DNA from: Albidovulum sediminicola
GTDB taxonomy: Bacteria; Pseudomonadota; Alphaproteobacteria; Rhodobacterales; Rhodobacteraceae
Length of the DNA: 64,000 bases
Direction: 5' to 3'
Assembly (NCBI RefSeq): GCF_025751575.1
Contig: NZ_JAOWLA010000004.1
Location: forward strand, 1 to 64,000
Position numbers and translations under genes: made by a program. This document shows, piece after piece, positions 41,801 to 55,999 of the stretch. The number at the start of each line of letters is the position of its first letter. Position 1 is the stretch's first letter. Below the pieces are notes generated by a model. That model did no database searches. It was not told the DNA's origin and was given only the letters and a program-made list of their open reading frames with translations.

Positions 41801-42000
41801 TGTTCGATGATCTGGGTGACCGTGTTGGCCACCGTATCGGCCGAGGCACCCGGATAGGCGGCGCTGATGCGGACCGAGGGCGGGGCGATCTGCGGATACT
41901 GCGCGATGGGCAGCGACAGGATCGACAAGAGCCCCACCCCCATGATCAGGATGGAGATCACCCAGGCAAAGACCGGCCTGTCGATGAAGAACCGTGCCAT
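38893..42000 (-). CDS. RND efflux pump inner-membrane permease (HAE1 family)
   Basis: 1035 residues, full length. [20 protein letters not shown] start, TM helices and two large periplasmic loops. The proton relay residues of AcrB-type pumps are present: the DD pair in [19 protein letters not shown] and Lys in [17 protein letters not shown]. It expels hydrophobic toxicants through a periplasmic adaptor and an outer-membrane channel. It is 12 bp after the adaptor gene; no TolC-type gene is in the window. Confidence 0.96.
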
Positions 42001-42012
42001 CCGGACCCCCGC

Positions 42013-43146
42013 TCAGTTCGAGGAGGGCGCGGCGCCGCCCTCGGCCCTGCGCTCCTCGGGCGCCACGGGGGCGCCTGCGGCGATCTTCTGCAGCCCCTCC
42101 ACGATGATCCTGTCGCCGCTCGCCAGGCCCTCGGTCACGATCCAGTAGGGGCCCTGGTCGCGCAGCACCGTCAGCGCCCGCTGTTCGACCACGTTGTCGG
42201 CAGTGACCACCATGGCGGTCGGCTGCCCGCGCCGGTCGCGGCCCACGCCCTCCTGTGGGGCGAGGATCGCATTTTCGATCACGCCTTGCGGCATCTCGAC
42301 CTGGACATACATGCCGGGCAGCAGGAAATGGTCCGGGTTCGGGAACATCAGGCGCAGCACCACGACGCCGGTCAGTTCGTTGACGCGCGGCTCGGCGGCC
42401 TCAAGCTGGCCGGTCTGCTCATAGGCCGACCCGTCGGCCAGGCGAAGCCGCACGGTCTGGTCCATGCCCTCTCCGGAGGGGTTCGCGCGGCGCCGGCGCA
42501 GAAGCTCCGCCGCCGATTGCGTCACGTCCACATAGACCGGATCGAGGGCGCGGATAACCGTTAGCGCAGAGGATTGCCCGGCGGTGACGAGTGCGCCCTG
42601 CGTCGTCTCGCTCAGCCCCACGACGCCGGACAGCGGCGCCCGGATGGTGGTGCGGTCAAGATCGATCTGCGCCGATTGCAGGTTGGCGCGCGCCACCTGC
42701 ACGGCCGCCTCGGCCACGTCACGCGCGGCGATGGCGTCGTCGAGGTTCTGCTGGCTGACCACCGAACGTCCCAGAAGGGTTTCCTGCCGCTTGGCCTCGC
42801 TTTCGGCGGCGCGCAGCGTCGCCTCGGCCTGCGTCAGCCCTGCCTGCGCGGCGGCGACCTTGGCCTCGTAGCTGGCCGGGTCGATCTGGTAGAGGGGATC
42901 GTCCTTCTGCACCTCGGCCCCCTCGTCGAAGAGCCGCGCGGTGATGATGCCGTTGACCTGCGGGCGCACCTCCGCGACGCCGGAGGCCGCGACCCGCCCC
43001 GGCAGGGGGGAGATCAGCGTGACCGGCTGGGCCTCCAGCGTCACGACGGTCACCGGCGTCGGCGGGGGCGATCCGGCCTCCTGGGCCGAGGTGTTCGCCC
43101 CAAGGGCAATCAGCGCCGCAGAAAGGGCGAGGCTATGGCGCAGCAT
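42013..43146 (-). CDS. RND periplasmic adaptor (membrane fusion protein)
   Basis: 377 residues. N-terminal signal peptide (MLRHSLALSAALIALGANTS, cleavage after about 21), then the lipoyl/barrel-sandwich halves (GRVAASGVAEVRPQVNGIIT and TTIRAPLSGVVGLSETTQG) flanking a coiled-coil hairpin (about 95-160), and the beta-barrel and membrane-proximal domains. It bridges the RND permease and an outer-membrane channel. It lacks the lipobox Cys of AcrA, so it is a soluble periplasmic form or is anchored by its signal. Confidence 0.94.
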   Translation of the reverse strand: MLRHSLALSAALIALGANTSAQEAGSPPPTPVTVVTLEAQPVTLISPLPGRVAASGVAEVRPQVNGIITARLFDEGAEVQKDDPLYQIDPASYEAKVAAAQAGLTQAEATLRAAESEAKRQETLLGRSVVSQQNLDDAIAARDVAEAAVQVARANLQSAQIDLDRTTIRAPLSGVVGLSETTQGALVTAGQSSALTVIRALDPVYVDVTQSAAELLRRRRANPSGEGMDQTVRLRLADGSAYEQTGQLEAAEPRVNELTGVVVLRLMFPNPDHFLLPGMYVQVEMPQGVIENAILAPQEGVGRDRRGQPTAMVVTADNVVEQRALTVLRDQGPYWIVTEGLASGDRIIVEGLQKIAAGAPVAPEERRAEGGAAPSSN

Positions 43147-43316: not shown

Positions 43317-43937
43317 CTAGGCGATTGCCCTCGGGAACAGCAGTTCCAGATAATCCCTGAACTGCTCCGACTGGCGTGCCGTCATGCCCGGATTGCGGTA
43401 GGCCCGCTGAAGGATCAGCCCGCCCTCGATGACCGCAACGAACATCTCGGCCAGCCGCTTGGCTGTCACGGGCCGCACGGGCGGGTGGCGGTCGATGACC
43501 TCCTGGAACTTGCGGATGTACATCGCCGTCCAGCTTTGCAGCGTCTCGGCCACGAAGCCCTTCAGGTCGTTTTCGAAATGGTCGTCCTCGTAAGTGTAAA
43601 GCGCATACATGCAGCCCTTGGGCGGGTTTTCCGGATCAGACAGATAGACCTCGAAATCGGTCAGGAACTGCATGAGCTGATCCATAGGATCGTCATGCGC
43701 GGCCTCGGCCCGGGCGAGGATGGTGCGGAACATCCTGATGTCCCCGTCGGCGTACCAGCGCATCAGCTGGTTCGCCAGATCCGCCTTGGATTTGAAGTGA
43801 TGGAAGAACGCGCCCTTCGATACTCCGGTCTCGGCAAGGATGTCATCGACGGAGGTGCCCGCAAAGCCCTTGCGCATGACCAGCGCCTTGGCCCCCGTCA
43901 GGATCTTCTCTTTCGCTAATGCGCCTTTTGGGGTCAT
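43317..43937 (-). CDS. TetR-family repressor
   Basis: 206 residues. TetR HTH at 8-55: AKEKILTGAKALVMRKGFAGTSVDDILAETGVSKGAFFHHFKSKADL. The C-terminal domain (CMYALYTYEDDHFENDL, MFVAVIEGGLILQRAY) resembles the AcuR/YcdC-like group. It is upstream of, and on the same strand as, the RND pair and divergent from the ygjV-like gene, so it probably controls both. Two copies of an ACAGACC-type site lie in the divergent region. Confidence 0.9.
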   Translation of the reverse strand: MTPKGALAKEKILTGAKALVMRKGFAGTSVDDILAETGVSKGAFFHHFKSKADLANQLMRWYADGDIRMFRTILARAEAAHDDPMDQLMQFLTDFEVYLSDPENPPKGCMYALYTYEDDHFENDLKGFVAETLQSWTAMYIRKFQEVIDRHPPVRPVTAKRLAEMFVAVIEGGLILQRAYRNPGMTARQSEQFRDYLELLFPRAIA

Positions 43938-44003: not shown

Positions 44004-44060
44004 GAAACTCTATGTTTCATTCTTGTTTCAGGCACGGAGGTTTTCTGAAACGATCGAAAC
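44004..44060 (+). promoter_or_regulatory. GAAAC-box cluster 1 (divergent tetR/ygjV-like region)
   Basis: GAAAC at 44047-44051 and 44056-44060 with GATC between them gives the 9-bp tandem pair seen elsewhere in the region. A further GAAAC is at 44004-44008 and inverted copies (GTTTC) are at 44014-44018 and 44025-44029. There is no third box 28 bp downstream. Confidence 0.6.
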
Positions 44061-44080
44061 CCGGCTCCGTCTATTCCAAA

Positions 44081-44122
44081 AACAGACCAAATGGTACGCA
44101 TTAAACAGACCAAACAGTCTGT
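44081..44122 (+). promoter_or_regulatory. TetR operator candidates
   Basis: ACAGAC CAAACA GTCTGT (44105-44122) is a perfect 6-bp-arm palindrome. 23 bp upstream, ACAGACC AAAT GGT (44082-44095) repeats the left half with a short right half. The first ends 17 nt before the ygjV-like ATG and would block its transcription. The TetR-type length and divergent position fit autoregulation by the adjacent repressor. Confidence 0.65.
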
Positions 44123-44139
44123 AATATGCGGAGCCCACG

Positions 44140-44685
44140 ATGACCTTCCTGATCGACCAAGCCGCCGTCCTGCCGCTGGCCACCCTGTTCGGAACGGCCG
44201 GTCTTGCCGCACAACTCGTATGGCCGCTCTTTCGGAGCCGCGAGACGATGCTGACCGTCCAGCTTGGCGCCTCGTGCTGCTACGCGGCGAGCTACTTTCT
44301 GATGGGCCAGCAGACGGGAACCGCCGTCTGCCTGACCGGCGCGATCCAGACCACGGTTGCGCTTCTGGCGGGGGACCGCCCGTGGCTGGGGAAAATGGGC
44401 TACGTCTTTCTGCCGGTCGCGCTGGCGATCGGGATGCTGACCTTTTCGGGTCTGCCCACGATCCTCGCCGTCACGGCCTGCTGCCTGATCATGATCGGGC
44501 GCTTGCAGTCCGACACGCTCAGGATGCGCCGCATCCAGCTCTGCGCCGCGCCCCTTGGCGCTACCCACGACATCCTGATCGGCGCCTGGCCCTGCCTGGC
44601 CGGGGCGCTGGCCGCCTTCTCGATCGCCTTCACGGCCCTGCGCCGCGAGCAGCGCGAACGCCGCGCCGCCCTCGGGGCCGCCTGA
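44140..44685 (+). CDS. YgjV-family inner-membrane protein
   Basis: 181 residues, about six TM helices: LATLFGTAGLAAQLVWPLF, LGASCCYAASYFLMGQQTGT, MGYVFLPVALAIGMLTFSG, ATHDILIGAWPCLAGAL. It matches the YgjV/Imp-YgjV family of unknown function; the conserved QTTVALL segment is present. It heads a run ygjV-like, dsrE-like, rhodanese on the plus strand and is the probable divergent target of the TetR repressor. Confidence 0.75.
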   Translation: MTFLIDQAAVLPLATLFGTAGLAAQLVWPLFRSRETMLTVQLGASCCYAASYFLMGQQTGTAVCLTGAIQTTVALLAGDRPWLGKMGYVFLPVALAIGMLTFSGLPTILAVTACCLIMIGRLQSDTLRMRRIQLCAAPLGATHDILIGAWPCLAGALAAFSIAFTALRREQRERRAALGAA

Positions 44686-44751
44686 ACCCGATCCCGGCCG
44701 GACCGGGGACTGTCCGGAACCCCACTCAACCTCGCAAAAAGGAATGAAAAG

Positions 44752-45123
44752 ATGGAAGACCAAGTCAAGAAGCTCGCAATCGTCGTGTCCCGCGGTCTGG
44801 ATGATGAACGGGCGACCGTCGCCTTCACCATCGCCAATACCGGCGTCGCGTCCGGGCAGCAGGTAACGCTGTTCATGGTCAGCGCGGCGGTGGACGTGGT
44901 GCGCAAGGGTGCCGCCGACAACGTGCGCATGAACCCCTTCGATCCGCCGCTGAAGGAACTGATCGACAAGTTCCAAGCCGGGGGTGGCCGCATCCTTGTG
45001 TGCCCGCCCTGCGCCAAGGTCCGTGGCTACGGCGAGGGCGACTTCATCGAGGGCGTTCAGGTCGTGGGCTCGCCCGCGCTGCATGCCCTGATCCTCGACG
45101 GCGCAGCCACGCTGAGCTTCTGA
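44752..45123 (+). CDS. DsrE-family sulfur-transfer-like protein
   Basis: 123 residues. DsrE fold: KKLAIVVSRGLDDERATVAFTIANTG, then VTLFMVSAAVDVVRKGAAD and a C-terminal conserved VCPPCAKVRGYGEGDFIEGV with Cys84 and Cys87. The PPCAxxRGY form is typical of DsrE-like proteins. Such proteins accept and move sulfane sulfur. It is directly upstream of a rhodanese, which supports a persulfide role. Confidence 0.82.
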   Translation: MEDQVKKLAIVVSRGLDDERATVAFTIANTGVASGQQVTLFMVSAAVDVVRKGAADNVRMNPFDPPLKELIDKFQAGGGRILVCPPCAKVRGYGEGDFIEGVQVVGSPALHALILDGAATLSF

Positions 45124-45150
45124 ACCCCACCCCAACGAAGGAGAAAGACC

Positions 45151-45516
45151 ATGACTTCCTGCACCAACGCTGGCGTAGTCGCCAACTCCACCGCCACCGC
45201 GATCACCGCCGCCGAGGCGAAGGGCCACCACGGGCGCGCGGGCGTCGAGTTCGTCGATCCGCGCCCGGCCCAGGCCATCGCCGCGACCACCGGCAAGATC
45301 CCCGGCGCGCGGGTCATCGCGCTTGCTGATATCGAGGCGGGACGCCTGCCGCCGGCCTTCGCCGACCGCTCGATCCATGTCGTCACGTCGTGCCAGGCGG
45401 GTCCCATGGCCGCGCGCGCGGCTGCGGCCTTCGCCCGGCTCGGCTTCGCCCGGGTCAGCTGGATCGACGGCGGCACCCAAGCCTGGGTCGCGGCAGGGCT
45501 TCCGACCGTCCGCTAA
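45151..45516 (+). CDS. Single-domain rhodanese
   Basis: 121 residues. The active-site loop reads VVTSCQAGPMAARAA with the persulfide-forming Cys81; the usual CRSGxRS loop is replaced by CQAGPMA. Family start FVDPRPAQA and end WIDGGTQAWVAAGLPTV are normal. Rhodaneses carry sulfur as a Cys persulfide. It follows the DsrE gene by 27 bp in the same unit. Confidence 0.87.
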   Translation: MTSCTNAGVVANSTATAITAAEAKGHHGRAGVEFVDPRPAQAIAATTGKIPGARVIALADIEAGRLPPAFADRSIHVVTSCQAGPMAARAAAAFARLGFARVSWIDGGTQAWVAAGLPTVR

Positions 45517-45538
45517 AGCCGGATCTTCCCGGCCGAAC

Positions 45539-45568
45539 GCAGCACCGCGCGGACCCGCCCGGTGCTGC
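45539..45568 (+). terminator. Possible terminator hairpin after the rhodanese gene
   Basis: GCAGCACCG / CGGTGCTGC 9-bp stem with a 12-nt loop, 22 nt past the stop. There is no U-run, so it may rather be a processing or Rho-pause structure. Confidence 0.4.
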
Positions 45569-45609
45569 GCTGCGGTTCCGTTAGGCCGCGCGGCCCGACC
45601 CCTCGTGTC

Positions 45610-45646
45610 GAAACCATTGAAACACGCGCCGCAATTTCGCTGAAAC
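45610..45646 (+). promoter_or_regulatory. GAAAC-box array 2 (osmC-like promoter)
   Basis: GAAAC (45610-45614) CATT GAAAC (45619-45623), then 18 bp, then GCTGAAAC ending at 45646. The pair has the same 4-bp gap as arrays 1, 4 and 5. The third box is 10 bp (one helical turn) nearer than in arrays 3 to 5. Confidence 0.7.
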
Positions 45647-45723
45647 GTGGCGGCCCTAGACCTCCTGTCCATCGGGCGAACAGATCGCTCGTACGCAAAC
45701 AGTGGAAAGACAGGAGACCCCAC

Positions 45724-46305
45724 ATGACCATCGAGACGACCCAGAAGCCTCAGAAAGTCGCCATCAACGGCGTCGACGTGCCGACCTTTGTCGCCACGCT
45801 GGGGGTTGTCGGACAGCAGCCCGACATCGCCAAGTTCACCTTCCGCGCCAACGGCGAGTGGCTTTCGGGAACCCATTCCCGCACCGCATTCCCCGGCTTC
45901 TTCGGCGCGATGGCCGAGCAGCAGCATCGCCAGCCCCACAGCATCGACGGCGATCACCCGCAGGTGCTTTGCGGCACGGACAACGGCGTCACGCCGGTCG
46001 AGATGCTGCTGGCCGGGCTCTCGGCCTGCATCACCGCCGGGATCGGCAATATCGCCTCCATCCGCCAGGTGAAGCTGACCTCGGTCGAAACCACGGTCGA
46101 GGGCGACATCAACCTCAACGGGATCCTCGGCCTCGACAAGGGCGTGCGCAACGGGTTCTCGGGCGTCCGCGCGACGTTCCGGATCAAGGGCGACGCGCCG
46201 GATGAGGTGCTGGAACAGATTGTTCAACAGTCCGTCGCGCGTTCGGCCGTGTTCGATGTGCTGACGAACGGCGTGCCGGTGACCGTGGCCGCGATCGCGA
46301 ACTGA
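45724..46305 (+). CDS. OsmC-family peroxide/organic hydroperoxide resistance-type protein
   Basis: 193 residues from ATG 45724. The OsmC pattern is clear from about 75: GVTPVEMLLAGLSACITAGIGNIAS with Cys102, and the tail VLEQIVQQSVARSAVFDVLTNGVPVTV. Cys83 may pair with Cys102; the family usually has two redox Cys about 60 residues apart, so this spacing is atypical and reactivity is uncertain. The group with YDV/DVLTN ends is often called OsmC-like and may process persulfides or other thiols. Confidence 0.82.
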   Translation: MTIETTQKPQKVAINGVDVPTFVATLGVVGQQPDIAKFTFRANGEWLSGTHSRTAFPGFFGAMAEQQHRQPHSIDGDHPQVLCGTDNGVTPVEMLLAGLSACITAGIGNIASIRQVKLTSVETTVEGDINLNGILGLDKGVRNGFSGVRATFRIKGDAPDEVLEQIVQQSVARSAVFDVLTNGVPVTVAAIAN

Positions 46306-46374
46306 CATCGGGTGGCGGGGCGCATCCCCGCCGTCCGCCCTTCAAAAACCAAACCCCGTGAAAGGAATACGACA

Positions 46375-46533
46375 ATGCAGAAGACCCAGATGACCAAGAC
46401 CTACGGCAACGGCTTCGATCACATGGCCAACAAGCAGGCGCAGCGTGACTTCATCGCCTGGTGGAATGACCGGAGCCACTTTCCCTTCGCAGCGGCCGCC
46501 GAGCCGAAGCAGGACTTCGCCATGGCCGCCTGA
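46375..46533 (+). CDS. Small protein of unknown function (52 aa)
   Basis: 52 residues from ATG 46375 (AAAGGAAT upstream). Sequence begins MQKTQMTKTYGNGFDHMANK and continues with AQRDFIAWWNDRSHFPFAAAAE. It has an aromatic WW motif and an Ala-rich end, no signal or membrane segment. It is 69 bp after the osmC-like gene and ahead of a terminator, so it is probably the second gene of that unit. No family recognised. Confidence 0.6.
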   Translation: MQKTQMTKTYGNGFDHMANKQAQRDFIAWWNDRSHFPFAAAAEPKQDFAMAA

Positions 46534-46554
46534 TCCCCAACCCTGTTCCCCGTG

Positions 46555-46586
46555 AACGCCCGTGGTGAAAGCCGCGGGCGTTTTCG
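46555..46586 (+). terminator. Rho-independent terminator of the osmC-like unit
   Basis: AACGCCCGTGG / CCGCGGGCGTT 11-bp stem (one G-U) with a 6-nt loop, followed by TTCGT. Confidence 0.75.
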
Positions 46587-46620
46587 TCTGGGCCAGAGCC
46601 TCAGGGCGCCCGGGCGGGGC

Positions 46621-46667
46621 GATACAAATGAAACGCGCCGCCCGCAGGGACGAAGTCGTCCTGAAAC
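46621..46667 (+). promoter_or_regulatory. GAAAC-box array 3 (FAD enzyme promoter)
   Basis: GATAC (46621-46625) AAAT GAAAC (46630-46634), then exactly 28 bp, then CCTGAAAC ending at 46667. The first box has one mismatch. It lies between a terminator and the first FAD gene. Confidence 0.65.
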
Positions 46668-46714
46668 ACCGCGCCGCCAAGTTGCGACCAAGCAACCGAG
46701 AGCGGAGTGAAAAC

Positions 46715-47956
46715 ATGTCGAGATCTGTGGACCTTATCATCATCGGCGCCGGGCCGGCGGGTCTTGCCCTGAGCTGGTCCATGCGCCAGCGTGGCGTCGA
46801 TCACCTCGTGCTTGAACGGGGCAGGGTTGGTGAGCGCTGGCACAGCGAGCGCTGGCCCGGGCTTCGGCTGCTGACACCCAACTGGATGAATGCGCTGCCC
46901 GGTATGGCCACGGTCGGACCGGTGGGCGGCTTCATGTCCGCCAGCGATTTCGCCGGCCGTCTGACCCGTTACGGCACGCGCATCGCCGCGCCTGTGGTGA
47001 GCGGCTGCGCAGTGCAGTCGGTCACGCAGGATGGGGACGGATTTCGCGTGCTGTCCACCGCCGGGGAATGGCGGTGCCGCGCGTTGGTGATCGCGACCGG
47101 CGCCTGCGACCAGGCGGCGATCCCGGACTGGGCCTCGGCGCTGCCCCGCCAGGTTTGGCAGGTGGCGCCCAGCCACTATCGCGGACCCGACAGCCTGCCC
47201 CAAGGCAACGTGCTGGTGGTCGGCGCTTCCGCGACGGGGGCGCAACTGGCCTCCGAGATCCAGGCCAGCGGCAGGAAGGTGACGCTGTCGGTTGGCCGGC
47301 ATGTGCGGGCACCCCGCCGCTACCGTGGGCGCGATGTCTTCGACTGGCTTGACGGCAGCGGGTTCCTGAGGGAGGCGCGGTCACGCGCGACCTCTCGTCC
47401 GGTGGCGCTTCCCTCGCTCCAGCTTGTGGGCCGCCCGGACAATCGCGACATCGACCTTGCCATGCTGGCCGCGCAGGGCGTCAGGATCGCCGGTCGTGCC
47501 TTGGGCGTTTCGCAGGGGCGGGTCCGCTTTGCCCCGACGCTTGCCACGGAATGCGCGGCCTCCGAGGTGCGGCGGCGGAAGCTTCTGACGGTGATCGACC
47601 GTCACATCGCCGGCGCGGGGATCGAAGCCCCCAAAGATCCGCAGGCATGGGAGGCCCGCGTGCCCCCGGTCGCCCAATTCGCCGGTGCGGACTTGCCCAC
47701 GCAAGAGATCGCTACCGTGGTCTGGGCCACCGGTTTTCGGCGCAGCTATCCCTGGTTGCGGGTGCCGGTCCTCGATGCCGCTGGCGAGATCGTCAGCGAC
47801 GGCGGCGTGACGCCCGTGGATGGGCTTTTCACGCTGGGCCTGCCGTTCATGCGCCACCGCAGTTCGGCCTTCATCCACGGCTTCGGTCGTGACGCCGAGG
47901 CGATCGCCTCCGCCATTTCCCATCACCTCGACAAATGCGCCGCGCGCGCCGCCTGA
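46715..47956 (+). CDS. FAD/NAD(P)-binding oxidoreductase (flavin monooxygenase-like)
   Basis: 413 residues from ATG 46715. N-terminal FAD site LIIIGAGPAGLALSWSMRQRGVDHLVLE (residues 6-33), then GERWHSERWPGLRLLTPNW, typical of CzcO/FMO-like enzymes, and the second nucleotide site NVLVVGASATGAQLASEI at about 167-184. VVWATGFRRSYPWL is the conserved ATGF box. It is likely an NADPH-dependent flavin monooxygenase or a dithiol/sulfide-type oxidoreductase; the substrate is unknown. First of two FAD genes in one unit. Confidence 0.82.
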   Translation: MSRSVDLIIIGAGPAGLALSWSMRQRGVDHLVLERGRVGERWHSERWPGLRLLTPNWMNALPGMATVGPVGGFMSASDFAGRLTRYGTRIAAPVVSGCAVQSVTQDGDGFRVLSTAGEWRCRALVIATGACDQAAIPDWASALPRQVWQVAPSHYRGPDSLPQGNVLVVGASATGAQLASEIQASGRKVTLSVGRHVRAPRRYRGRDVFDWLDGSGFLREARSRATSRPVALPSLQLVGRPDNRDIDLAMLAAQGVRIAGRALGVSQGRVRFAPTLATECAASEVRRRKLLTVIDRHIAGAGIEAPKDPQAWEARVPPVAQFAGADLPTQEIATVVWATGFRRSYPWLRVPVLDAAGEIVSDGGVTPVDGLFTLGLPFMRHRSSAFIHGFGRDAEAIASAISHHLDKCAARAA

Positions 47957-47967
47957 AAGGACTGACC

Positions 47968-49125
47968 ATGACCGAAAGACTGCAAACGAACCGTTACGAT
48001 GCCATCGTCGTTGGCGCCCGCTGTGCCGGTGCCGCGACCGCGCTTTTGCTTGCTCGGCAGGGGGCGAGGGTGCTTGTCGTCGATCACGACAGCCCCGGCA
48101 CCGACACGATGTCGACCCATGCGCTGATGCGCGGCGCGGTGATCCAGCTTCACAGATGGGGCCTGCTCGACCCGATCGCCCGGGCCGGGACACCCGCGAT
48201 CCGCCGCACCAGCTTCATTTACGAGGATCAGGCGGTGGACGTGGACATCAAGCCCGAGCATGGCATCGACGCGCTTTACGCGCCGCGCCGTAGCCTGCTG
48301 GACGCGACACTGGCCGAGGCCGCCGCCGCCGCGGGGGCAGAGCTTCGCTACCGTACCGGCTGCGTGGGCCTGCTGCGGGCGGAGGACGGCCGCGTTCTTG
48401 GCGTAACGCTGCGGACCCCGTCAGGCGCGACCGAGGATGTGCACGCGGACATCGTCATCGGCGCGGACGGCCGCCGCTCGACCGTGGCGCGTCATGTCGG
48501 TGCGCAGATCACGCGGCGGGCGCAAAACAGCATCGGCTGCGTCTACGCCTATATGGGCGGCCTGCCCGAGCGCGGCTACCGCTGGCACTTCGCGCCGGGG
48601 GCGGCGGGCGGGATCATCCCGACAAACGAGGGCCTTTCCTGCGTCTTCGCCGCCGTCACACCGGCGGTCTTGGCCGAGGCGCGCGCGAGCGGCGATGCTG
48701 GCCATGCCGCGCTGATCGCGCGCCACCTGCCGGTTCTGTCCGAGGAACTGGCGAATGCCGTCCCGGCAGAGCGTCCCGTCACCTTCCCGGGCAGCTACGG
48801 CTATTTCCGGCAGTCGGCGGGGCCGGGTTGGGCCTTGGTCGGGGACGCAGGCTACTTTCGCGACCCCCTGACCGCGCATGGGATCACCGATGCGCTGCGC
48901 GATGCCGAGGTGCTGGCCAACGCCGTGATCCAGGGAACCGTCGTCGGCTACCCGACGCTGCGCGAGGCGCTGTCGTCGGAGTTCTTCGATATCACCGACC
49001 GGATTGCCGCGCTTACCTGGTCGATGGAGGAGATCCAGCAACTGCACCGCAGGCTGAACAAGGCGATGAAGGCCAATCAGGACTGGATCGCCGCGCAGGA
49101 CGGATCGCTGCGCCAAGCCGCCTGA
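47968..49125 (+). CDS. FAD-dependent monooxygenase-like protein (group A)
   Basis: 385 residues. FAD site DAIVVGARCAGAATALLLARQGARVLVVD (10-38), the DG motif VIGADGRRSTVAR at about 168, and the GD motif WALVGDAGYFRDPLTAHGITDALRDAE near 290. It resembles p-hydroxybenzoate hydroxylase and geranylgeranyl reductase-like flavoproteins. Substrate unknown. Starts 11 bp after the first FAD gene, so they form an operon ending at a clear terminator. Confidence 0.82.
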   Translation: MTERLQTNRYDAIVVGARCAGAATALLLARQGARVLVVDHDSPGTDTMSTHALMRGAVIQLHRWGLLDPIARAGTPAIRRTSFIYEDQAVDVDIKPEHGIDALYAPRRSLLDATLAEAAAAAGAELRYRTGCVGLLRAEDGRVLGVTLRTPSGATEDVHADIVIGADGRRSTVARHVGAQITRRAQNSIGCVYAYMGGLPERGYRWHFAPGAAGGIIPTNEGLSCVFAAVTPAVLAEARASGDAGHAALIARHLPVLSEELANAVPAERPVTFPGSYGYFRQSAGPGWALVGDAGYFRDPLTAHGITDALRDAEVLANAVIQGTVVGYPTLREALSSEFFDITDRIAALTWSMEEIQQLHRRLNKAMKANQDWIAAQDGSLRQAA

Positions 49126-49145
49126 GGCGGCATGGAACGCAAGGC

Positions 49146-49175
49146 AAGGCTCGCCCGCAGGGGCGAGCCTTTTCG
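49146..49175 (+). terminator. Rho-independent terminator of the FAD operon
   Basis: AAGGCTCGCCC GCAG GGGCGAGCCTT stem followed by TTCG. It is 20 nt after the stop codon. Symmetry allows it to work on both strands. Confidence 0.85.
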
Positions 49176-49216
49176 CTGTCCCGCGCGGACGCCGGCAGAC
49201 AGACCCGGTGCCCGGC

Positions 49217-49247
49217 AAAAGAAAAGACCCGCCGTGAAAGGCGGGTC
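49217..49247 (-). terminator. Rho-independent terminator of the DUF1127-like gene
   Basis: Minus strand: GACCCGCC / GGCGGGTC 8-bp stem with 6-nt loop, followed by TTTTCTTTT. Confidence 0.85.
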
Positions 49248-49275
49248 AGTCAGGGAGGAAGAAGGGGAAAGCGGC

Positions 49276-49425
49276 TCAGATGCGGTGGGCCAGGCGCGAT
49301 GCGTGATCGAGGTGAAGGCCGACGTCGCGGGCCAGCCAGGGCTCGAGATGCCGCATCGAGCGGTAAAGGGCGCGGGCCTCGCGGCGGTTGACCAGGGCGG
49401 TGTGCAGTTCGTTCAGGGCTTTCAT
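49276..49425 (-). CDS. DUF1127-like microprotein (49 aa)
   Basis: 49 residues: MKALNELHTALVNRREARAL, then YRSMRHLEPWLARDVGLHLD and HASRLAHRI. A Shine-Dalgarno GGAGAG precedes the ATG and a strong terminator follows, which support a real gene. The LYRSMRHLEPWLARDVGL core recalls DUF1127 proteins (small, basic, usually ELARLDDRLLRDIGL). It is divergent from the truncated hemoglobin gene, and its upstream region holds a degenerate GAAAC array. DUF1127 proteins in alphaproteobacteria affect RNA turnover and phosphate or stress responses. Confidence 0.7.
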   Translation of the reverse strand: MKALNELHTALVNRREARALYRSMRHLEPWLARDVGLHLDHASRLAHRI

Positions 49426-49474
49426 CGTGTCTCTCCGGGGTTCGTTTTCGATGGAGCCACTATCGCCCCGCCGC

Positions 49475-49521
49475 GTTTCAGCCTGATATCCGCGGCCTTG
49501 CGATCATGCTTCAATTGCAGC
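49475..49521 (-). promoter_or_regulatory. GAAAC-box array 6 (DUF1127-like gene, minus strand)
   Basis: Read on the minus strand: GCTGC (49517-49521) AATT GAAGC (49508-49512), exactly 28 bp, then GCTGAAAC with GAAAC at 49475-49479. The third box and the 28-bp spacing are exact; the first two boxes are degenerate. Confidence 0.45.
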
Positions 49522-49539
49522 GCCAGTCGGTGCGGCTCT

Positions 49540-49586
49540 GAAACATTTGAAACGTGGCACCCCCTTTCCCGACACAGAGCTGAAAC
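49540..49586 (+). promoter_or_regulatory. GAAAC-box array 4 (truncated hemoglobin operon)
   Basis: GAAAC (49540-49544) ATTT GAAAC (49549-49553), 28 bp, GCTGAAAC ending at 49586. All three boxes are exact. CGACACAGAGCT precedes the third box, matching CGACACCACGCT in array 5 at the same place. Confidence 0.75.
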
Positions 49587-49720
49587 ATGGCGAAGAAATG
49601 CTGGGGGGCGGGAACGAATTGAAAAACTTGCCAAAAGGGCCGGGTTTGACCATGCTCGACGTTATAACGAAAACGGATGTCGGCGACCAAAAGGCCCTCG
49701 CGGGCCAGGAGGGTGTTCCC

Positions 49721-50077
49721 ATGACAAAGTCGCTTTTCGAGAAATACGGTGGGTTCTCGGTCGTCAGCAAGATCGTGCTCGACCTGTACGACCGGCTTCT
49801 GGACGACGACGAGGTCGGGCCGTTCTTCGACGAGGTGGAAATGGCCCGCATCGTCGATCACCAGACCAAGTTCGTGTCGTCGCTGATGGGCGGGCCCGCG
49901 TCCTACACGGATGACCAGATATCGCGGATGCATGCGCGGCTGACGATCACGAACGCGCATTTCGATACGCTCCAGGGCATCCTGCTTCAAACGCTTCTGG
50001 ATCATGGCGTCAGTGAGGAGGACGCCGCCGCGATCGCCGCCGCGTTCGAGGCCCGTCGCACTCTGGTGGTGGAGTAG
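49721..50077 (+). CDS. Truncated hemoglobin, group I
   Basis: 118 residues from ATG 49721 (CCAGGAGGG eight bases before); the frame stays open upstream but the family begins at LFEKYGGFSVVSKIVLDLYDR. Features of TrHbI: Tyr B10 in VLDLYDRLL, glycine motif, proximal His in TITNAHFDTL. It binds NO or O2 at heme. It is four bases ahead of the cyclase gene, followed by a kinase and a regulator, which suggests it is a separate heme sensor for that unit or an NO dioxygenase controlled by it. Confidence 0.9.
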   Translation: MTKSLFEKYGGFSVVSKIVLDLYDRLLDDDEVGPFFDEVEMARIVDHQTKFVSSLMGGPASYTDDQISRMHARLTITNAHFDTLQGILLQTLLDHGVSEEDAAAIAAAFEARRTLVVE

Positions 50078-50081
50078 GCTC

Positions 50082-51131
50082 TTGTCGATAGCCGCGATCA
50101 ACGAACAGCTCTTGCGCGCCATCGGGGTCGGTGTCGCGCTTCTTGACCTCGAAACGCTGCGTCTGCGATTCTACAACGACACATTCCGCGAATGGTTCGG
50201 AGAGATCGAGGTTGGCCAGCACATGACCGACCTCTTTTCCGGCCTTGACGCCGAGGCGCTGAAGGCCGGGCTGTCGGGAGAGGGGCGCTATGCCACCGAA
50301 ACCAGCTTTCGCCTGCGCCGCCGCACCATGACCGTCGCACTGTCGTTCAACCGCGCGCTGGAGAATGATGAGGCGATCGCCGTCCTCGTCTGCCAGAACA
50401 TCTCCCGCATCAAGGAGTTGGAGTCGATGATCGACTCCTACTCCATGATGGTCGAGCGCAACACGCGCGAGATCAAGCGCGAGAAGGAGCAGGTCGAGAA
50501 GCTGCTGCTCAACATGATGCCGCGCTCGGTCTACGAGGAATACAAGACCTTCGGCATCGTGACGCCGCGGCTATACGATCCGGTCGCGGTGCTTTGCCTC
50601 GACTTCATCGGCTTTGCGGGCATGGTCACGGCGCATGATCCGGGCGTGATCGTCAGCGAATTGAACGACATCTACACGGCCTTTGACCGGATCGGCGAAC
50701 AGTTCGGCTGCGCGCGTATCCGCGCGGTCGGCGATTTCTACATCGCGATGGCGGGGATGCCTGACCCGACCGATGATTACGCACAATCCGCCGCCAGTGC
50801 CGCCGTCCGTTTCATCCGCTACCTGAAGCAACGCAACGAAACCCACCCGATCCAGTGGACCGCCCGTGTCGGCATCGCGGCGGGGCCGGTGGTGGGATCG
50901 GTCGTGGGGGTGCAGAAATACATCTACGATGTCTTCGGCGGCGCCGTCATCCACGCCAGCCGCCTGCGCTACTTCGCCAATCCCATGTGCATCGTCGCGA
51001 ACCGCGCCCTGACCGATCAGCTTGACGACAGGTTCGTCGCCCATGCCGAGGGCAAGATCGAGCTTGCGGACGAACAGCCCGAGGAGGTCTTCAAGATCGA
51101 GGCGGAGGTGCAGGCCTCTGGCGGGGGCTGA
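50082..51131 (+). CDS. PAS-class III nucleotide cyclase, soluble guanylate cyclase-like
   Basis: 349 residues from TTG 50082. N-terminal PAS-like domain (about 5-112), a signalling helix with KEKEQVEKLLLNMMPRSVYE (close to the linker of eukaryotic NO-sensing guanylate cyclase), then a class III cyclase domain. The metal Asp pair is present (Asp174 in LCLDFIGF, Asp218 in AVGDFYIAM) and Arg294 in ASR. The catalytic Asn is replaced by Ile290 (AVIHASR) and the base-binding Lys by Arg214. It may be a weak or inactive cyclase, or use another substrate. Encoded between the hemoglobin and the hybrid kinase. Confidence 0.85.
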   Translation: MSIAAINEQLLRAIGVGVALLDLETLRLRFYNDTFREWFGEIEVGQHMTDLFSGLDAEALKAGLSGEGRYATETSFRLRRRTMTVALSFNRALENDEAIAVLVCQNISRIKELESMIDSYSMMVERNTREIKREKEQVEKLLLNMMPRSVYEEYKTFGIVTPRLYDPVAVLCLDFIGFAGMVTAHDPGVIVSELNDIYTAFDRIGEQFGCARIRAVGDFYIAMAGMPDPTDDYAQSAASAAVRFIRYLKQRNETHPIQWTARVGIAAGPVVGSVVGVQKYIYDVFGGAVIHASRLRYFANPMCIVANRALTDQLDDRFVAHAEGKIELADEQPEEVFKIEAEVQASGGG

Positions 51132-51133
51132 CG

Positions 51134-53059
51134 ATGGCCGTGCGGTTCGATCCCTCCGTGCCCGACGCGCCGCTGGCCGACACTGCGGACGGACGGGGCT
51201 CGGACATCCTGGACGAGGTGATCGACGCGCTCTCCGAAGGGCTCGCGGTCTTCAACGAAGACGCCATGCTGATCCGGCTCAACGCGGGATTCCGCGCCAT
51301 GAACCCGCAGATCGCGGAGCTTTTGCAGCCCGGCCTCAGCTGGGACATCCTCCTGCGGGAATGGGTCGGGCGTGGCGGCATGCCGCCGTCGGCCCGGGAA
51401 AGGCTTGCCTGGATGGAAGCGCGGCTGGCCAGTGGCGAACCCGGGACAATGCCCATCGAGTTCGAGACGAGCGGTCACGTCTTTGAGGTCCTGATGCGCG
51501 CGACCGCGACCGGCGGTTTCGTCCTGGTCCAGAACGACATCACCGACCGGCGCAGCTTCGAGGAGACCGAGCGCGAGGCGGACATGCTGCTGCGCCAGGT
51601 GCTGGAAGCCTGCCCGGCGAACATCGTGATGACGCGCGTCGGCGACGGGGAGGTCATCTACCGCACCCCCGCCGCAACCGAGCTTCTGGGCACCGGCAAG
51701 CGCCCCAACGGCATCTTTTCCTCCCGCGAGGAGCGGGCGGACTTCATCACCGCGCTGCTGCCCGATGGCCGTGTCGATGATATGACCGTCACCGGCGTCA
51801 AGGCCGACGGAACGCGCTTTCCCTGCATGATCTCGGCCCGGCTGATCGACTACCGGGGCGAGGACGTGATGGTCTCCACCACCGTCGACATCAGCAAGGA
51901 GGTCGAACTGCGCCGCCGTCTGGCCGAGCAGCGCGAACAGATCTTCCAGGCCGAGAAGATGTCCGCTTTGGGCGAGCTTCTGGCGGGCGTGGCGCATGAG
52001 TTGAACAACCCGCTCTCCGTCGTCGTCGGGCACGCCCTGATGCTGCGGGACGAGAGCATTGCGCCCGAAACGCTCCGCCGTGTCGAGAAGATCAGCGAGG
52101 CCGCCGAGCGCTGCGCCAAGATCGTCAAATCCTTCCTGGCGATGGCTCGGCAGCAGCCCGCGCGGCTGGTGCCGATCGACGTGAACGACACGCTCGAAAT
52201 CGCCATCGATGCGCTTCAGAACGGGGCCGACGGGGTTACGACACCGATCGAGACCGATTTCGCGGCAGACCTGCCGCCGATCCGGGGGGATGCGCACCAG
52301 ATCGCACAGATCCTCATCAACCTCGTGACCAATGCCGATCAGGCGATCGTCGAAAGCGGCAAGGGCGACCAGATCCGCATCACCGCGCGTCACGACGGCG
52401 GTGCCGACATGCTGGAGATCACGGTCGCCGACAACGGCCCCGGCATCCCGAACGCGATCCAGGGCCGCGTGTTCGACCCGCTTTTTACGACGAAGCCCGT
52501 GGGGTCGGGCACGGGCATCGGGTTGGCGCTTTGCCACCGGATCGTCACCGCGCATTCGGGGCAGATCCGGGTCATGCCCGACAAGGGCACCGGGGCGGTG
52601 ATCGTCGTTCGCCTGCCCACCACGACTGACGCGGATGCGGGAACGGTCACCGGCCCCGCCAGCATCGTCGGCCAGTCCAAGGGGCGCGTTCTGGTCGTGG
52701 ATGACGAAGACGATGTCTCTGATCTGATCCGGGAGATCCTTGTCCGAGACGGGTTCGAGGTTGCGGTCGCGGGCACGGCCGAGGCCGCGCTTGCCATGAC
52801 CGACTCGCAGGACTTCGCCCTGATCCTGACCGATCTGAACATGCCCGGGATGGGCGGGCGAGGGTTCTACGAAACCCTGCTGCGCAACCGTCCTTCGCTG
52901 GCCCGGCGTGTGGGTTTTGTCACCGGCGACACGATGAGCCCGCAGGCCCGCGGGTTTCTGGATGGGGCAGGGCGGCCCTGCCTTGAAAAGCCGATCGCCC
53001 CGTCGGAGCTGCGCAAGCTCGCGCAGTCCATGCTGGGCAATCACGGGGATAGGGCATGA
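51134..53059 (+). CDS. PAS-PAS hybrid sensor histidine kinase with C-terminal receiver
   Basis: 641 residues, soluble (no membrane segment). Two PAS domains (about 20-140 and 150-265, the second ending VDISKEVELRRRL), HisKA with His288 in AGVAHELNNPLSVVVG, HATPase (NLVTNADQAI, VADNGPGIP, GTGIGLALCHRI) to about 495, and a complete receiver (about 515-635: VVDDEDD, TDLNMPG, VTGD, EKP). No heme or Cys sensor motif is visible, so the signal may come from a partner such as the hemoglobin. It is 2 bp after the cyclase and overlaps the regulator by 4 bp. Confidence 0.92.
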   Translation: MAVRFDPSVPDAPLADTADGRGSDILDEVIDALSEGLAVFNEDAMLIRLNAGFRAMNPQIAELLQPGLSWDILLREWVGRGGMPPSARERLAWMEARLASGEPGTMPIEFETSGHVFEVLMRATATGGFVLVQNDITDRRSFEETEREADMLLRQVLEACPANIVMTRVGDGEVIYRTPAATELLGTGKRPNGIFSSREERADFITALLPDGRVDDMTVTGVKADGTRFPCMISARLIDYRGEDVMVSTTVDISKEVELRRRLAEQREQIFQAEKMSALGELLAGVAHELNNPLSVVVGHALMLRDESIAPETLRRVEKISEAAERCAKIVKSFLAMARQQPARLVPIDVNDTLEIAIDALQNGADGVTTPIETDFAADLPPIRGDAHQIAQILINLVTNADQAIVESGKGDQIRITARHDGGADMLEITVADNGPGIPNAIQGRVFDPLFTTKPVGSGTGIGLALCHRIVTAHSGQIRVMPDKGTGAVIVVRLPTTTDADAGTVTGPASIVGQSKGRVLVVDDEDDVSDLIREILVRDGFEVAVAGTAEAALAMTDSQDFALILTDLNMPGMGGRGFYETLLRNRPSLARRVGFVTGDTMSPQARGFLDGAGRPCLEKPIAPSELRKLAQSMLGNHGDRA

Positions 53060-53757
53060 GCGATCACATCCTCATCTGCGATGACGAACGCGAACTGCGC
53101 GAGATGCTGGCGGAATACCTGGGCAAGCGGGGCTTTCGCACCAGCCTGGCCGCCCAGGCCGAAGAACTGCGCGCGGCGCTTGCGCGGGAAAAGCCCGACC
53201 TGATCCTTCTGGATATCAACATGCCGGGCGAGGACGGGCTGTCGGTGCTGCGCAGCCTTCAGGGGCCGGATGCGCCCCATGTCATCATGCTGACCGCGGC
53301 GGGCGAGGTGGTCGACCGGGTCGTCGGGCTTGAGATGGGGGCGGACGACTATCTGGCCAAGCCCGTCGACCTGCGGGAGCTTGCCTCGCGCATCAAGGCG
53401 GTGCTGCGCCGCCGCGTCACCGCCGCCGCCGCCGAACCCGCGAGCGAGCGCACGCGCTTCCGCTTCGGCAAGACCTGGCTTGACCTCGAGGCGGCGAAGC
53501 TACTGGATGATGAGGGGAACGAGGTGCCGCTGACCTCGATGGAGTTCAATCTTCTCAAGCTCTTCGCCCGCAACCGTGGACGTGTCCTCAATCGCGACCA
53601 GATCCTGGAGGGCGCGCATGACCGCGCCTGGGATCCCTTCGACCGCTCGATCGATATCCGTATCTCGCGCCTGCGCAAGAAGATCGAGCTCAACCCGCAG
53701 AAGCCCGAGATCATCCGCACCGTGCGCGGCGTGGGCTATATCTACGACCCTTCCTGA
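53056..53757 (+). CDS. OmpR-family response regulator
   Basis: 233 residues. Receiver with Asp53 in LLDINMPGED and Lys in YLAKPVDLREL, and a winged-helix Trans_reg_C domain (about 135-230: LTSMEFNLLKLFARNRGRVLNRDQIL, RSIDIRISRLRKKIE, IRTVRGVGYIYDP). It is coupled to the hybrid kinase and is the most plausible binder of the GAAAC direct-repeat arrays; OmpR-type proteins bind direct repeats. Array 5 begins inside its stop codon. Confidence 0.94.
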   Translation: MSDHILICDDERELREMLAEYLGKRGFRTSLAAQAEELRAALAREKPDLILLDINMPGEDGLSVLRSLQGPDAPHVIMLTAAGEVVDRVVGLEMGADDYLAKPVDLRELASRIKAVLRRRVTAAAAEPASERTRFRFGKTWLDLEAAKLLDDEGNEVPLTSMEFNLLKLFARNRGRVLNRDQILEGAHDRAWDPFDRSIDIRISRLRKKIELNPQKPEIIRTVRGVGYIYDPS

Positions 53758-53802
53758 AACAACTGAAACCCTGAGCGGCCCCGCGCGACACCACGCTGAA
53801 AC
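53756..53802 (+). promoter_or_regulatory. GAAAC-box array 5 (globin/cysK unit)
   Basis: GAAAC (53756-53760) AACT GAAAC (53765-53769), 28 bp, GCTGAAAC ending at 53802. All boxes exact. It overlaps the stop codon of the response regulator and lies 48 bp before the globin start. Confidence 0.75.
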
Positions 53803-53849
53803 GGGCCGCAGGCAAGGTGATGGCATCAACCGCAAGGAAGGATGCCACC

Positions 53850-54284
53850 ATGAGCCTGACACCTGAGATGATCGCGACGGTCCGGAACAGCTGGACGGCG
53901 CTGTCGATGGACCCCGACACCCTGACGCGGACCTTCTACGCGGAGCTTTTCCGCATCGCACCGGAAGTGCGGCCGATGTTCGCGGGGACAGACCTGCAAT
54001 CCCAGCGCCGCAAGCTTGCCGCCGCGATCGCGATGGTCGTGCACCGGGCGGACAACCTTGCGGCCATCGTGCCCGCGCTTGAGGACCTTGGCCGCCGGCA
54101 TGTCGGCTACGGCGTTTCCGACGCGCAATATGACGCGGTCGGCCGCGCCCTGATCCATGCCATCGCCGCCTTCCACGGCCCCTCGTTTACTCCCGCCATC
54201 CAGGAAGCCTGGGTCGCGGCCTACACGGCTGTCGCCTCGGCGATGCAGGCAGGCGCCGCGACCGCGTTCCGGAAATCCGCCTGA
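53850..54284 (+). CDS. Single-domain globin (flavohemoglobin-type)
   Basis: 144 residues from ATG 53850. Globin fold with Tyr B10 in TFYAELFRIAPEVRPMF and proximal His in DLGRRHVGYGV, as in bacterial hemoglobins and the globin part of Hmp; there is no flavin domain. It likely binds O2 or NO. It is the second globin of the cluster and is under array 5, immediately downstream of the regulator. Confidence 0.9.
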   Translation: MSLTPEMIATVRNSWTALSMDPDTLTRTFYAELFRIAPEVRPMFAGTDLQSQRRKLAAAIAMVVHRADNLAAIVPALEDLGRRHVGYGVSDAQYDAVGRALIHAIAAFHGPSFTPAIQEAWVAAYTAVASAMQAGAATAFRKSA

Positions 54285-54502: not shown

Positions 54503-55999
54503 ATGAACGCTCTCCACCCCTCCATCCTCGGTACCGTCGGCAACACGCCGATCGTGCGCATCAACAAGCTCGCGCCCGAAGGGGTGGAGCTTTACGTCAA
54601 GCTCGAAGCCTTCAACCCGATGGGTTCGGTCAAGGACCGCCTGGCCCTCGGCATCATCGAGGCCGCCGAACGCGACGGGTCACTGAAGCCCGGCCAGACG
54701 GTGATCGAGGCGACCTCGGGCAACACCGGCATCGGGCTTGCCATGGTCTGTGCGGCCAAGGGCTATCCGCTGGTCGTGACCATGGCCGAAAGCTTTTCGG
54801 TCGAGCGGCGCAAGCTGATGCGGTTCCTGGGCGCGCGGGTCATCCTGACGCCGGCCTCGGAAAAGGGCTCCGGCATGGTCGCCAAGGCGAAGGAACTTGC
54901 CGAGAAGCACGGCTGGTTCCTGGCCCGCCAGTTCGAGAATGAGGCCGGACCCGACATCCACTCCCGCACCACCGCGCGTGAGATCCTGGACGATTTCGCC
55001 GAAACGCCGCTTGATTTCTGGGTTTCGGGCTTTGGCACCGGGGGCACGATGAAAGGCGTCGCCCGCGTGATCAAGGCCGAAAGCCCTGCGACGCAGGTGA
55101 TCGCCGCAGAACCCGACAACTCCCCGCTTCTGGGGTCCGGGATCGCGCAGACCTACGCGGACGACGGCACGCCCACCGCAAGCCACCCCGCCTTCCGGCC
55201 GCATCTGATGCAGGGCTGGACGCCGGATTTCATTCCCCGGCTGACCGCCGATGTCATCGCGGCGGGCCATATCGACAAGGTCCAGCCCGTCCCCGGCGAC
55301 GCGGCGCTGAAATGCGCCCGCGACCTCGCGCTGTACGAGGGGATCCTGTGCGGCATCTCCGGTGGGGCGACCTTTGCCGCCGCGCTGGAGGTCGCGCGCC
55401 GGGCGCCGAAGGGATCGCGCATCCTGGCCATGCTGCCCGACACGGGTGAGCGTTACCTGTCCACCCCGCTCTTCGCCGATATCGAGGAAACGATGAGCGA
55501 CGAGGAAAACGCCATCGCCGCCTCCACCCCCCGGTTCCGCTTCGATGCGGCTGCGGCCCCGGCTGCCGCCGCACCGGTTCCGGCGCCGACCGAAGCGGCC
55601 GTCGAACATGTCGACGCGATCCTTGCGGACCAGGACCAGCCGGTCGTCCTTTTCGCGCTGGAGTGGTGCGAGTTCAGCTGGTCGGTGCGTAAGCTCTTTG
55701 CCGCCGCCGGCATCCCCTATCGCTCGGTCGATCTCGACGGGCCTGAGTACCGAGAGGACGACTGGGGTGGTGCGGTGCGCAAGGCCCTTGCCCGCAAGAC
55801 CGGCGCAGTGACGATCCCGCAGATCTTCGTCGGCGGCCAGCATATCGGCGGCGCCACTGAGACCTTCGACGCCTTCAACGACGGCACGCTGCACAAGATG
55901 GTGCGGCAGGCCGGGATCGACCTCAAGGATGCCAGCGTCGGGAATGCCTATGGCTTCTTGCCCGCCTGGCTTCATCCCCGCAAGCCCGCCGCCGCCTGA
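54503..55999 (+). CDS. Cysteine synthase A fused to a C-terminal glutaredoxin domain
   Basis: 498 residues. CysK domain (1-330): PLP lysine Lys44 in NPMGSVKDRLALG, SGNTGIG phosphate loop at 72-78, GISGGAT at 284. A linker of Ala/Pro (334-372) leads to a glutaredoxin domain (373-485) with ALEWCEFSWSVRKLF, where Cys389 begins a one-thiol CEFS site, and the GSH-binding VTIPQIFVGGQHIGGATETFDAF. It makes cysteine from O-acetylserine and sulfide; the Grx part may reduce, deglutathionylate or take persulfide. Normal cysteine synthases are about 320 residues, so this is a true fusion. Confidence 0.9.
   Translation: MNALHPSILGTVGNTPIVRINKLAPEGVELYVKLEAFNPMGSVKDRLALGIIEAAERDGSLKPGQTVIEATSGNTGIGLAMVCAAKGYPLVVTMAESFSVERRKLMRFLGARVILTPASEKGSGMVAKAKELAEKHGWFLARQFENEAGPDIHSRTTAREILDDFAETPLDFWVSGFGTGGTMKGVARVIKAESPATQVIAAEPDNSPLLGSGIAQTYADDGTPTASHPAFRPHLMQGWTPDFIPRLTADVIAAGHIDKVQPVPGDAALKCARDLALYEGILCGISGGATFAAALEVARRAPKGSRILAMLPDTGERYLSTPLFADIEETMSDEENAIAASTPRFRFDAAAAPAAAAPVPAPTEAAVEHVDAILADQDQPVVLFALEWCEFSWSVRKLFAAAGIPYRSVDLDGPEYREDDWGGAVRKALARKTGAVTIPQIFVGGQHIGGATETFDAFNDGTLHKMVRQAGIDLKDASVGNAYGFLPAWLHPRKPAAA

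Follow-up and report, generated by a model that had tools for sequence, protein, structure and literature searches.

Introduction

Sites of OmpR contain GAAAC-like half-sites, sites of the OmpR family have a period of 10–11 bp, and the alphaproteobacterial LexA site is a direct repeat of a GAAC-like word. Repeated GAAAC boxes were found in the stretch of DNA analyzed here, the first 64,000 nucleotides of contig NZ_JAOWLA010000004.1 of Albidovulum sediminicola (referred to as the window), where they belong to a three-box element upstream of the genes of a small cluster. For PhoB, passages of the source papers describe 11-bp tandem half-sites near the −10 region that substitute for the −35 region (PMC2648988, PMC4971064, PMC4496699) and a site period of 11 bp (PMC2648988).

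Judging from the sequence comparisons described below, the boxes constitute, with a probability of roughly 80%, the operator-promoter element of a compact local regulon, the promoters of which would be activated by the phosphorylated OmpR-type regulator encoded in the cluster.

Identification of the three-box element

Exact GAAAC-N4-GAAAC pairs start at positions 44047, 45610, 49540, and 53756 of the window cluster, and a pair with GATAC as the first box starts at 46621. A third GAAAC, directly preceded by CT, starts at 46663, 49582, and 53798 after a gap of 28 bp (N28) and at 45642 after a gap of 18 bp (N18). The initial annotation had already reported all of these pairs and third boxes as well as a minus-strand site on the DUF1127 side, and its positions proved to be correct on re-reading. 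The sites and the evidence for them are as follows:

44047..44060, plus strand: site 1, first pair GAAAC-N4-GAAAC before the YgjV-DsrE-rhodanese genes, with a poor third box AAAAC at N18 (44079–44083); pattern scan, matrix
45610..45662, plus strand: osmC site, boxes 45610–45614 and 45619–45623, half-site GCAAT 45631–45635, box 3 45642–45646 (N18), −10-like TAGACC 45657–45662; scan, matrix, relatives
46621..46683, plus strand: FMO site, GATAC 46621–46625, GAAAC 46630–46634, half-site GAAGT 46652–46656, box 3 46663–46667 (N28), −10-like CAAGTT 46678–46683; scan, matrix, relatives
49459..49521, minus strand: DUF1127 site, degenerate box 1, GAAGC 49512–49508, half-site GATAT 49490–49486, box 3 GAAAC 49479–49475 (N28), −10-like GATAGT 49464–49459; matrix, relatives
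49540..49602, plus strand: truncated-globin/cyclase/kinase/regulator site, boxes 49540–49544 and 49549–49553, half-site GACAC 49571–49575, box 3 49582–49586 (N28), −10-like AATGCT 49597–49602; scan, matrix, relatives
53756..53818, plus strand: globin (and CysK-Grx) site, boxes 53756–53760 and 53765–53769, half-site GACAC 53787–53791, box 3 53798–53802 (N28), −10-like CAAGGT 53813–53818; scan, matrix, relatives
44014..44029, minus strand: GAAAC-N6-GAAAC with an 11-bp period, facing tetR; sequence, by eye also in loci L043 and L137

Downstream of the last of these, a clear −10 element was not seen by eye.

The anatomy of the element was derived from 36 N28 sites aligned without gaps and from 78 matches above 35, grouped by gap class and including a few second readings of one site, to a position matrix that had been trained on 45 exact-pair triples, all from outside the window. 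The order of the parts is ctGAAACAatTGAAAC, a spacer, GACAY (or GCAAT/GAAAA), 6 bp, GAAAC, 10 bp, and a −10-like hexamer. The three-box layout of the initial annotation was correct, while two parts had been overlooked. One is an extra half-site that precedes box 3 by exactly 11 bp and reads GACA at N28 sites, GCAAT at N18 sites, and GAAAA at N27 sites. The other is the hexamer, which begins 10 bp past box 3 (CAAGGT, TAGACC, and similar); 90% or more of the 36 N28 sites have an A at its second position, apparently as in a sigma-70 −10 element. Near the promoter there is accordingly a tandem GACAY-N6-GAAAC followed by N10, i.e., an 11-bp direct repeat close to the predicted −10 region, and due to the distance of 10 bp between box 3 and the hexamer, box 3 would occupy the −35 position. 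In this genome, the distance of the upstream pair from box 3 is shorter by one helical turn at osmC (N18) than at the other sites (N28). As the two gaps differ by 10 bp, the pair stays on the same face of the helix.

Enrichment and conservation

At one mismatch or less, the pair pattern matches seven times in the window, of which five matches are located inside the cluster; in shuffled sequences the mean was 2.30 and the maximum 6, so that none of 100 reached seven. The host genome (4.13 Mb in 70 contigs) contains 12 exact pairs, four of them in this cluster, compared to five for the reversed-pattern control. With the third box added and one mismatch allowed, four N28 matches were detected in the genome (three in the cluster, control 1) and two N18 matches (both in the cluster, control 0). 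The position matrix scores 56.8 for the truncated-globin site, 52.8 for globin, 51.0 for osmC, 46.7 for FMO, and 27.9 for the minus-strand DUF1127 site, and 10 windows shuffled in blocks of two bases reached 17.3 at best. For site 1, the pair score of 23.2 is strong and the total of 16.8 lies within the shuffled range; its first pair is kept in L043, L137, L138, and L141.

For the comparison with relatives, 24 loci were used (503,726 bases, window included), which are a non-random set of neighborhoods picked by the regulator domain or OsmC and of which L043 and L050 stem from one genome. Loci L131–L136 are repeats of genomes already taken and stand outside this count, although L132 and L133 were included in a scan, and the distant OsmC matches L142 and L143 were not used. 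Since one site may be listed two to three times under different gaps, the top score was taken as the site. In total, the 24 loci contain 57 exact pairs, compared to 0.75 ± 0.70 and a maximum of 2 when they were shuffled 20 times by dinucleotides. Where a TGAAAC comes next within 60 bp, the gap is 17 (2 cases), 18 (11), 27 (3), 28 (24), or 35 (1), i.e., 17/18 or 27/28 in 40 of 41, and no triples were found in the dinucleotide shuffles of these loci.

The five sites at osmC, FMO, DUF1127, truncated globin, and globin are kept in position and spacing among the relatives. Extrapolated from tblastn matches, box 1 lies 104–122 bp from the start codon for the N18 sites of osmC, 89–121 bp for FMO, 94–98 bp for DUF1127, 100–118 bp for the truncated globin, and 89–95 bp for the globin. 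The osmC element has the N18 form in Defluviimonas-like loci and in L137–L140 and the N28 form in L123–L127, L141, and L151. The degenerate DUF1127 site is also present before the orthologue in six further loci (L043, L044, L045, L122, L137, L139). Among the osmC loci are those from Brevirhabdus, Maritimibacter, Alloyangia pacifica, Oceanibium sediminis, Salipiger thiooxidans, and Oricola. The plasmid pLA3 of Novosphingobium pentaromativorans carries the genes for OsmC, FMO, the FAD-dependent oxidoreductase, truncated globin, cyclase, kinase, regulator, and CysK/Grx one after the other, and the element precedes osmC, FMO, and CysK/Grx there. The taxa with the element comprise Rhodobacteraceae, Oricola, and Novosphingobium. 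In more distant relatives, an N27 element, mostly with a GAAA-type half-site, was observed upstream of the kinase gene (L123 7278, L124 12760, L126 7386, L127 13007, L129 12810).

A random spread of the motif over the genome was considered and discarded: of the eight neighborhoods of off-cluster exact pairs, six have no matrix score above 5 and two reach at most 12.7 and 13.2, and the sole off-cluster N28 near-match (contig C6) scores 12.6. An off-cluster match of the element model (C69:161433, E 0.0024), with a matrix score of 7.7, was taken as noise. A random distribution and a loss of spacing in relatives, either of which would have spoken against a shared regulon motif, were both looked for; instead, the sites are concentrated in the cluster and the gaps are kept across the 24 loci. 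The sequence comparison hence confirms the GAAAC boxes as a real, strongly conserved site before a small stress-type gene cluster in several alphaproteobacterial groups. The proposal of one common regulator recognizing a site of fixed spacing is strongly supported by the kept sequence, spacing, and position.

Proposed assignment of the regulator

Two genes of the cluster encode the candidate signaling proteins:

53056..53757, plus strand: OmpR-family response regulator, proposed binder of the motif (Pfam Response_reg and Trans_reg_C)
51134..53059, plus strand: PAS-PAS hybrid histidine kinase, proposed sensor (Pfam)

The two open reading frames (ORFs) overlap. The regulator shows the features of the OmpR/PhoB family, a receiver and a winged-helix Trans_reg_C domain with intact phosphorylation residues (D9, D10, D53, and K102, near-invariant in 15 sequences including that of the window). 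Its alignment-free structure prediction had a mean predicted local distance difference test (pLDDT) value of 44.5 and was not used.

With a profile of the DNA-binding domain (E ≤ 1e-47), a close relative was detected in 7 of the 22 genomes of the genus, in 11 of 295 from the family, and in 4 of 385 from the class. Six genus genomes have an exact N28 triple at the cluster and six have an exact N18 triple at osmC, which together are exactly the seven domain-bearing genomes. In the 15 domain-less genus genomes no exact triple was found. One further exact N18 match (G015, contig C3) looks like chance. The chance of such a 7/15 split is 1 in 170,544 for independent genomes, which related genomes are not. 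The best E-values of the element model range from 2.2e-13 to 1.7e-4 in the seven genomes and are 0.0038 or worse in the 15. An exact N28 match is present in 5 of 39 genomes outside the genus (G033, G036, G038, G043, G051), in none of which a T precedes box 3. Exact N28 triples with this T (N28-T) were found in 8 of the 295 family genomes and 10 of the 385 class genomes, 16 of them distinct; the triple in G254, with a score of 23.3, is not located at the regulator gene of that genome, and one of the two triples in G195 is off-cluster. Five of the six domain-bearing family genomes without an exact N28-T triple have N27, N18, or inexact sites beside the regulator, and in the sixth (G284) no site was found in the stretch taken.

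The class genomes G506 and G496 have consensus-like sites, yet the domain is absent at 1e-47, and for both a nearby OmpR-type regulator was predicted beforehand. In G506 the prediction held, regulator (52%) and kinase (39%) being encoded beside the sites. Of the 16 triple-bearing genomes, five were already known to carry the domain; a re-search of the other 11 at E ≤ 1e-30 recovered a more distant relative of it in G506 (6e-39) and in G496 (3e-44), and the domain already known in G254, but nothing in the remaining eight. As a negative control, 24 loci of paralogous regulators (88 kb) yielded no matches above 20.

Several observations weigh against the assignment of the element to this regulator. 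The element model was trained on sites from six of the seven positive genus genomes, and the sites of related species are non-independent events. With one mismatch allowed, 9 of the 15 domain-less genus genomes have an N28 triple and 5 have an N18 triple, which is about the level of the reversed control. An exact N28-T triple is present in only 5 of the 11 domain-bearing family genomes, and in 3 of the 284 others. For G496 the prediction failed, as the regulator is absent from the stretches around the sites found by the motif; two domain relatives lie on other contigs, there with further sites scoring 24–47. Loci L128 (12 kb), L130, and L181 contain the regulator domain, and no strong site was found in the stretch taken; the same holds for L050, the second, receiver-less copy in G013. 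Finally, the first pair has a period of 9 bp, which is unusual vs. OmpR-family sites, so that this pair may be bound differently or by another protein.

Taken together, the cluster's OmpR-type regulator is very probably the binder of the motif. It had also been the first candidate of the initial annotation, and the choice is backed by the co-occurrence in the genus, the partly successful distant prediction, and the retention of the motif alongside receiver-less homologues in genomes that lack the kinase.

Receiver-less versions of the regulator

In G006, G016, G018, and Brevirhabdus (G288), the domain is located in a protein of about 200–225 residues (start uncertain) without a receiver. In these four genomes, draft assemblies among them, a search for the hybrid kinase at E ≤ 1e-60 found no relative, whereas one was found in 4/4 tested genomes with the full regulator. 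The motif stays at osmC, FMO, or CysK-Grx in the four receiver-less cases. G013 carries both forms. The receiver-less OmpR-type proteins are encoded at:

L047, 2725–3399
L048, 9595–10260
L049, 6682–7371 (contig edge)
L050, 9545–10246
L122, up to 10206

Trans_reg_C is the only significant Pfam family in 5/5 of these proteins, and a receiver domain was not detected; the L122 protein was searched minus its first residues, and two other families appeared only at E 0.025 and 0.35. We slightly favor the view that the controller is interchangeable, i.e., that one three-box element and its targets are run by a kinase-driven response regulator or, elsewhere, by a receiver-less, kinase-free version, two-component and one-component regulons sharing their operators.

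By eye, a DUF1127-like ORF seems to sit just upstream of the receiver-less gene in L047, L048, and L050. The genes for an RND pump and HlyD, which adjoin tetR in the window (38893–43146), recur near the receiver-less regulator of G013 (L050 2770–6960, 82–83% and 71% identity).

Proposed mechanism and alternative explanations

Activation by the OmpR-type regulator is likely. One regulator dimer would occupy the 11-bp tandem GACAY-N6-GAAAC, which would substitute for a −35 region, and recruit RNA polymerase via sigma region 4 as PhoB does, while a second dimer, bound to the upstream pair and facing the same side of the helix, would stabilize the first. The regulator would be phosphorylated by the PAS-PAS hybrid kinase upon a signal that is probably chemical, since the presence of globins, OsmC, flavin oxidoreductases, and CysK-Grx points to reactive oxygen, nitrogen, or sulfur species. 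Because the kinase and regulator genes themselves also lie downstream of the truncated-globin element, the circuit is likely to reinforce itself. In relatives without kinase and receiver, the receiver-less domain would serve the same promoters and would probably be controlled by its own amount.

The TetR protein, the second candidate of the initial annotation, is encoded in the cluster next to site 1:

43317..43937, minus strand: TetR-family protein with LmrA/YxaF-like C-terminal domain (family search)
44084..44121, plus strand: two TetR-type operators unlike the GAAAC motif, AGACCAAATGGT at 44084–44095 and AGACCAAACAGTCTG at 44107–44121 (locus comparison)

That it binds the GAAAC boxes is extremely improbable, since it has operators of its own: AGACCAAA-type sequences are kept in the YgjV/tetR intergenic region of 5/5 loci examined. 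These fit its C-terminal domain, AGACC...GGTCT being the LmrA-like TetR operator type, which the GAAAC boxes do not match. The motif is furthermore kept in L044, L045, L139, and L140, where no TetR match was found in the stretch taken, and in L151, where none is annotated, so that this candidate had to be dropped. At site 1, where a TetR operator adjoins the poor third box, TetR is probably an additional layer of control.

Box 3 might instead be the −35 region of an alternative sigma factor of the extracytoplasmic function (ECF) type, with the pair as its enhancer, and TGAAAC does resemble some ECF −35 elements. The sole strongly conserved downstream element starts 10 bp past box 3, too near for a −35/−10 pair, and the motif follows the OmpR-type domain (no genome-wide search for sigma-factor genes was made); with its unsuitable spacing this explanation was rejected as highly improbable. 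A division of the element between two proteins, the regulator on the 11-bp tandem and another on the 9-bp pair, would account for the differing periods and for the pair with merely a poor third box at site 1, but appears quite unlikely, as both parts have the GAAAC core and co-occur with the same domain (the other regulators of the loci being uncatalogued). Finally, the same regulator could bind and mainly repress. The direction of control is unreadable from sequence, and OmpR-type regulators can repress, as part of the text on GltR describes (PMC5902321), but a tandem half-site with a −10 hexamer at 10 bp is the geometry of PhoB activation according to passages of PMC4971064 and PMC4496699, which makes predominant repression unlikely.

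Further genes of the cluster

Besides the genes given above, the cluster contains the following features as well as an MFS gene:

44140..45516, plus strand: YgjV-like membrane protein, DsrE, rhodanese (family search)
45724..46305, plus strand: OsmC family protein (family search)
46715..47956, plus strand: FAD-dependent oxidoreductase, labelled FMO, similar to TIGR04046 at 3.7e-94 yet below its cut-off (family searches)
47935..49125, plus strand: second FAD-dependent oxidoreductase (family searches)
49276..49425, minus strand: DUF1127-like small ORF, so labelled in the initial annotation and without Pfam match (ORF)
49652..50077, plus strand: truncated haemoglobin, alternative start 49721 (Pfam)
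50082..51131, plus strand: adenylate/guanylate cyclase domain with weak N-terminal PAS match (Pfam)
53850..54284, plus strand: single-domain globin (Pfam)
54503..55999, plus strand: cysteine synthase-glutaredoxin fusion, CysK-Grx (family searches)

The glutaredoxin domain of CysK-Grx has one near-invariant cysteine, C389, in 13 sequences. Between osmC and FMO, an ORF of 52 amino acids (46375–46533) has 44–58% identity in relatives and no Pfam match.

Comparison with known systems

An uncharacterized OmpR-family regulator hereby gains a precise predicted binding code with few predicted targets, namely OsmC, the flavin oxidoreductases, two globins, the cyclase, CysK-Grx, and its own kinase and regulator genes. 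With its two natural spacings one helical turn apart and its natural versions without receiver and kinase, in which the operators are kept, it would be a good system for studying −35-less activation by response regulators and the exchange between two-component and one-component control.

No paper describing the motif or the cluster was found in a search confined to open-licence literature; PMC5320631 proved to be irrelevant. With PhoB and the pho box, as far as described in the passages cited in the introduction, the system shares a regulator of the OmpR/PhoB family and an 11-bp tandem near the −10 region in the place of the −35 region. It differs in the half-sites, which are GAAAC/GACAY and not CTGTCAT, and in the extra upstream pair with its 9-bp period; the window regulator reaches 165.5 bits on TIGR02154, below the cut-off of 296.2 for PhoB orthologues. 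Enterobacterial OmpR is the best NCBIfam match of the regulator (NF007005), yet its 232.6 bits stay below the orthologue cut-off of 331, and the window cluster has another gene neighborhood, with a PAS hybrid kinase in place of EnvZ. The direct repeat of a GAAC-like word is shared with LexA, whereas the word here is GAAAC, the periods are 9 and 11, and the motif follows another protein. As far as could be seen, the motif, the three-part layout, and the natural receiver-less and kinase-less versions are new, and the protein family and its mode of action are of a known kind.

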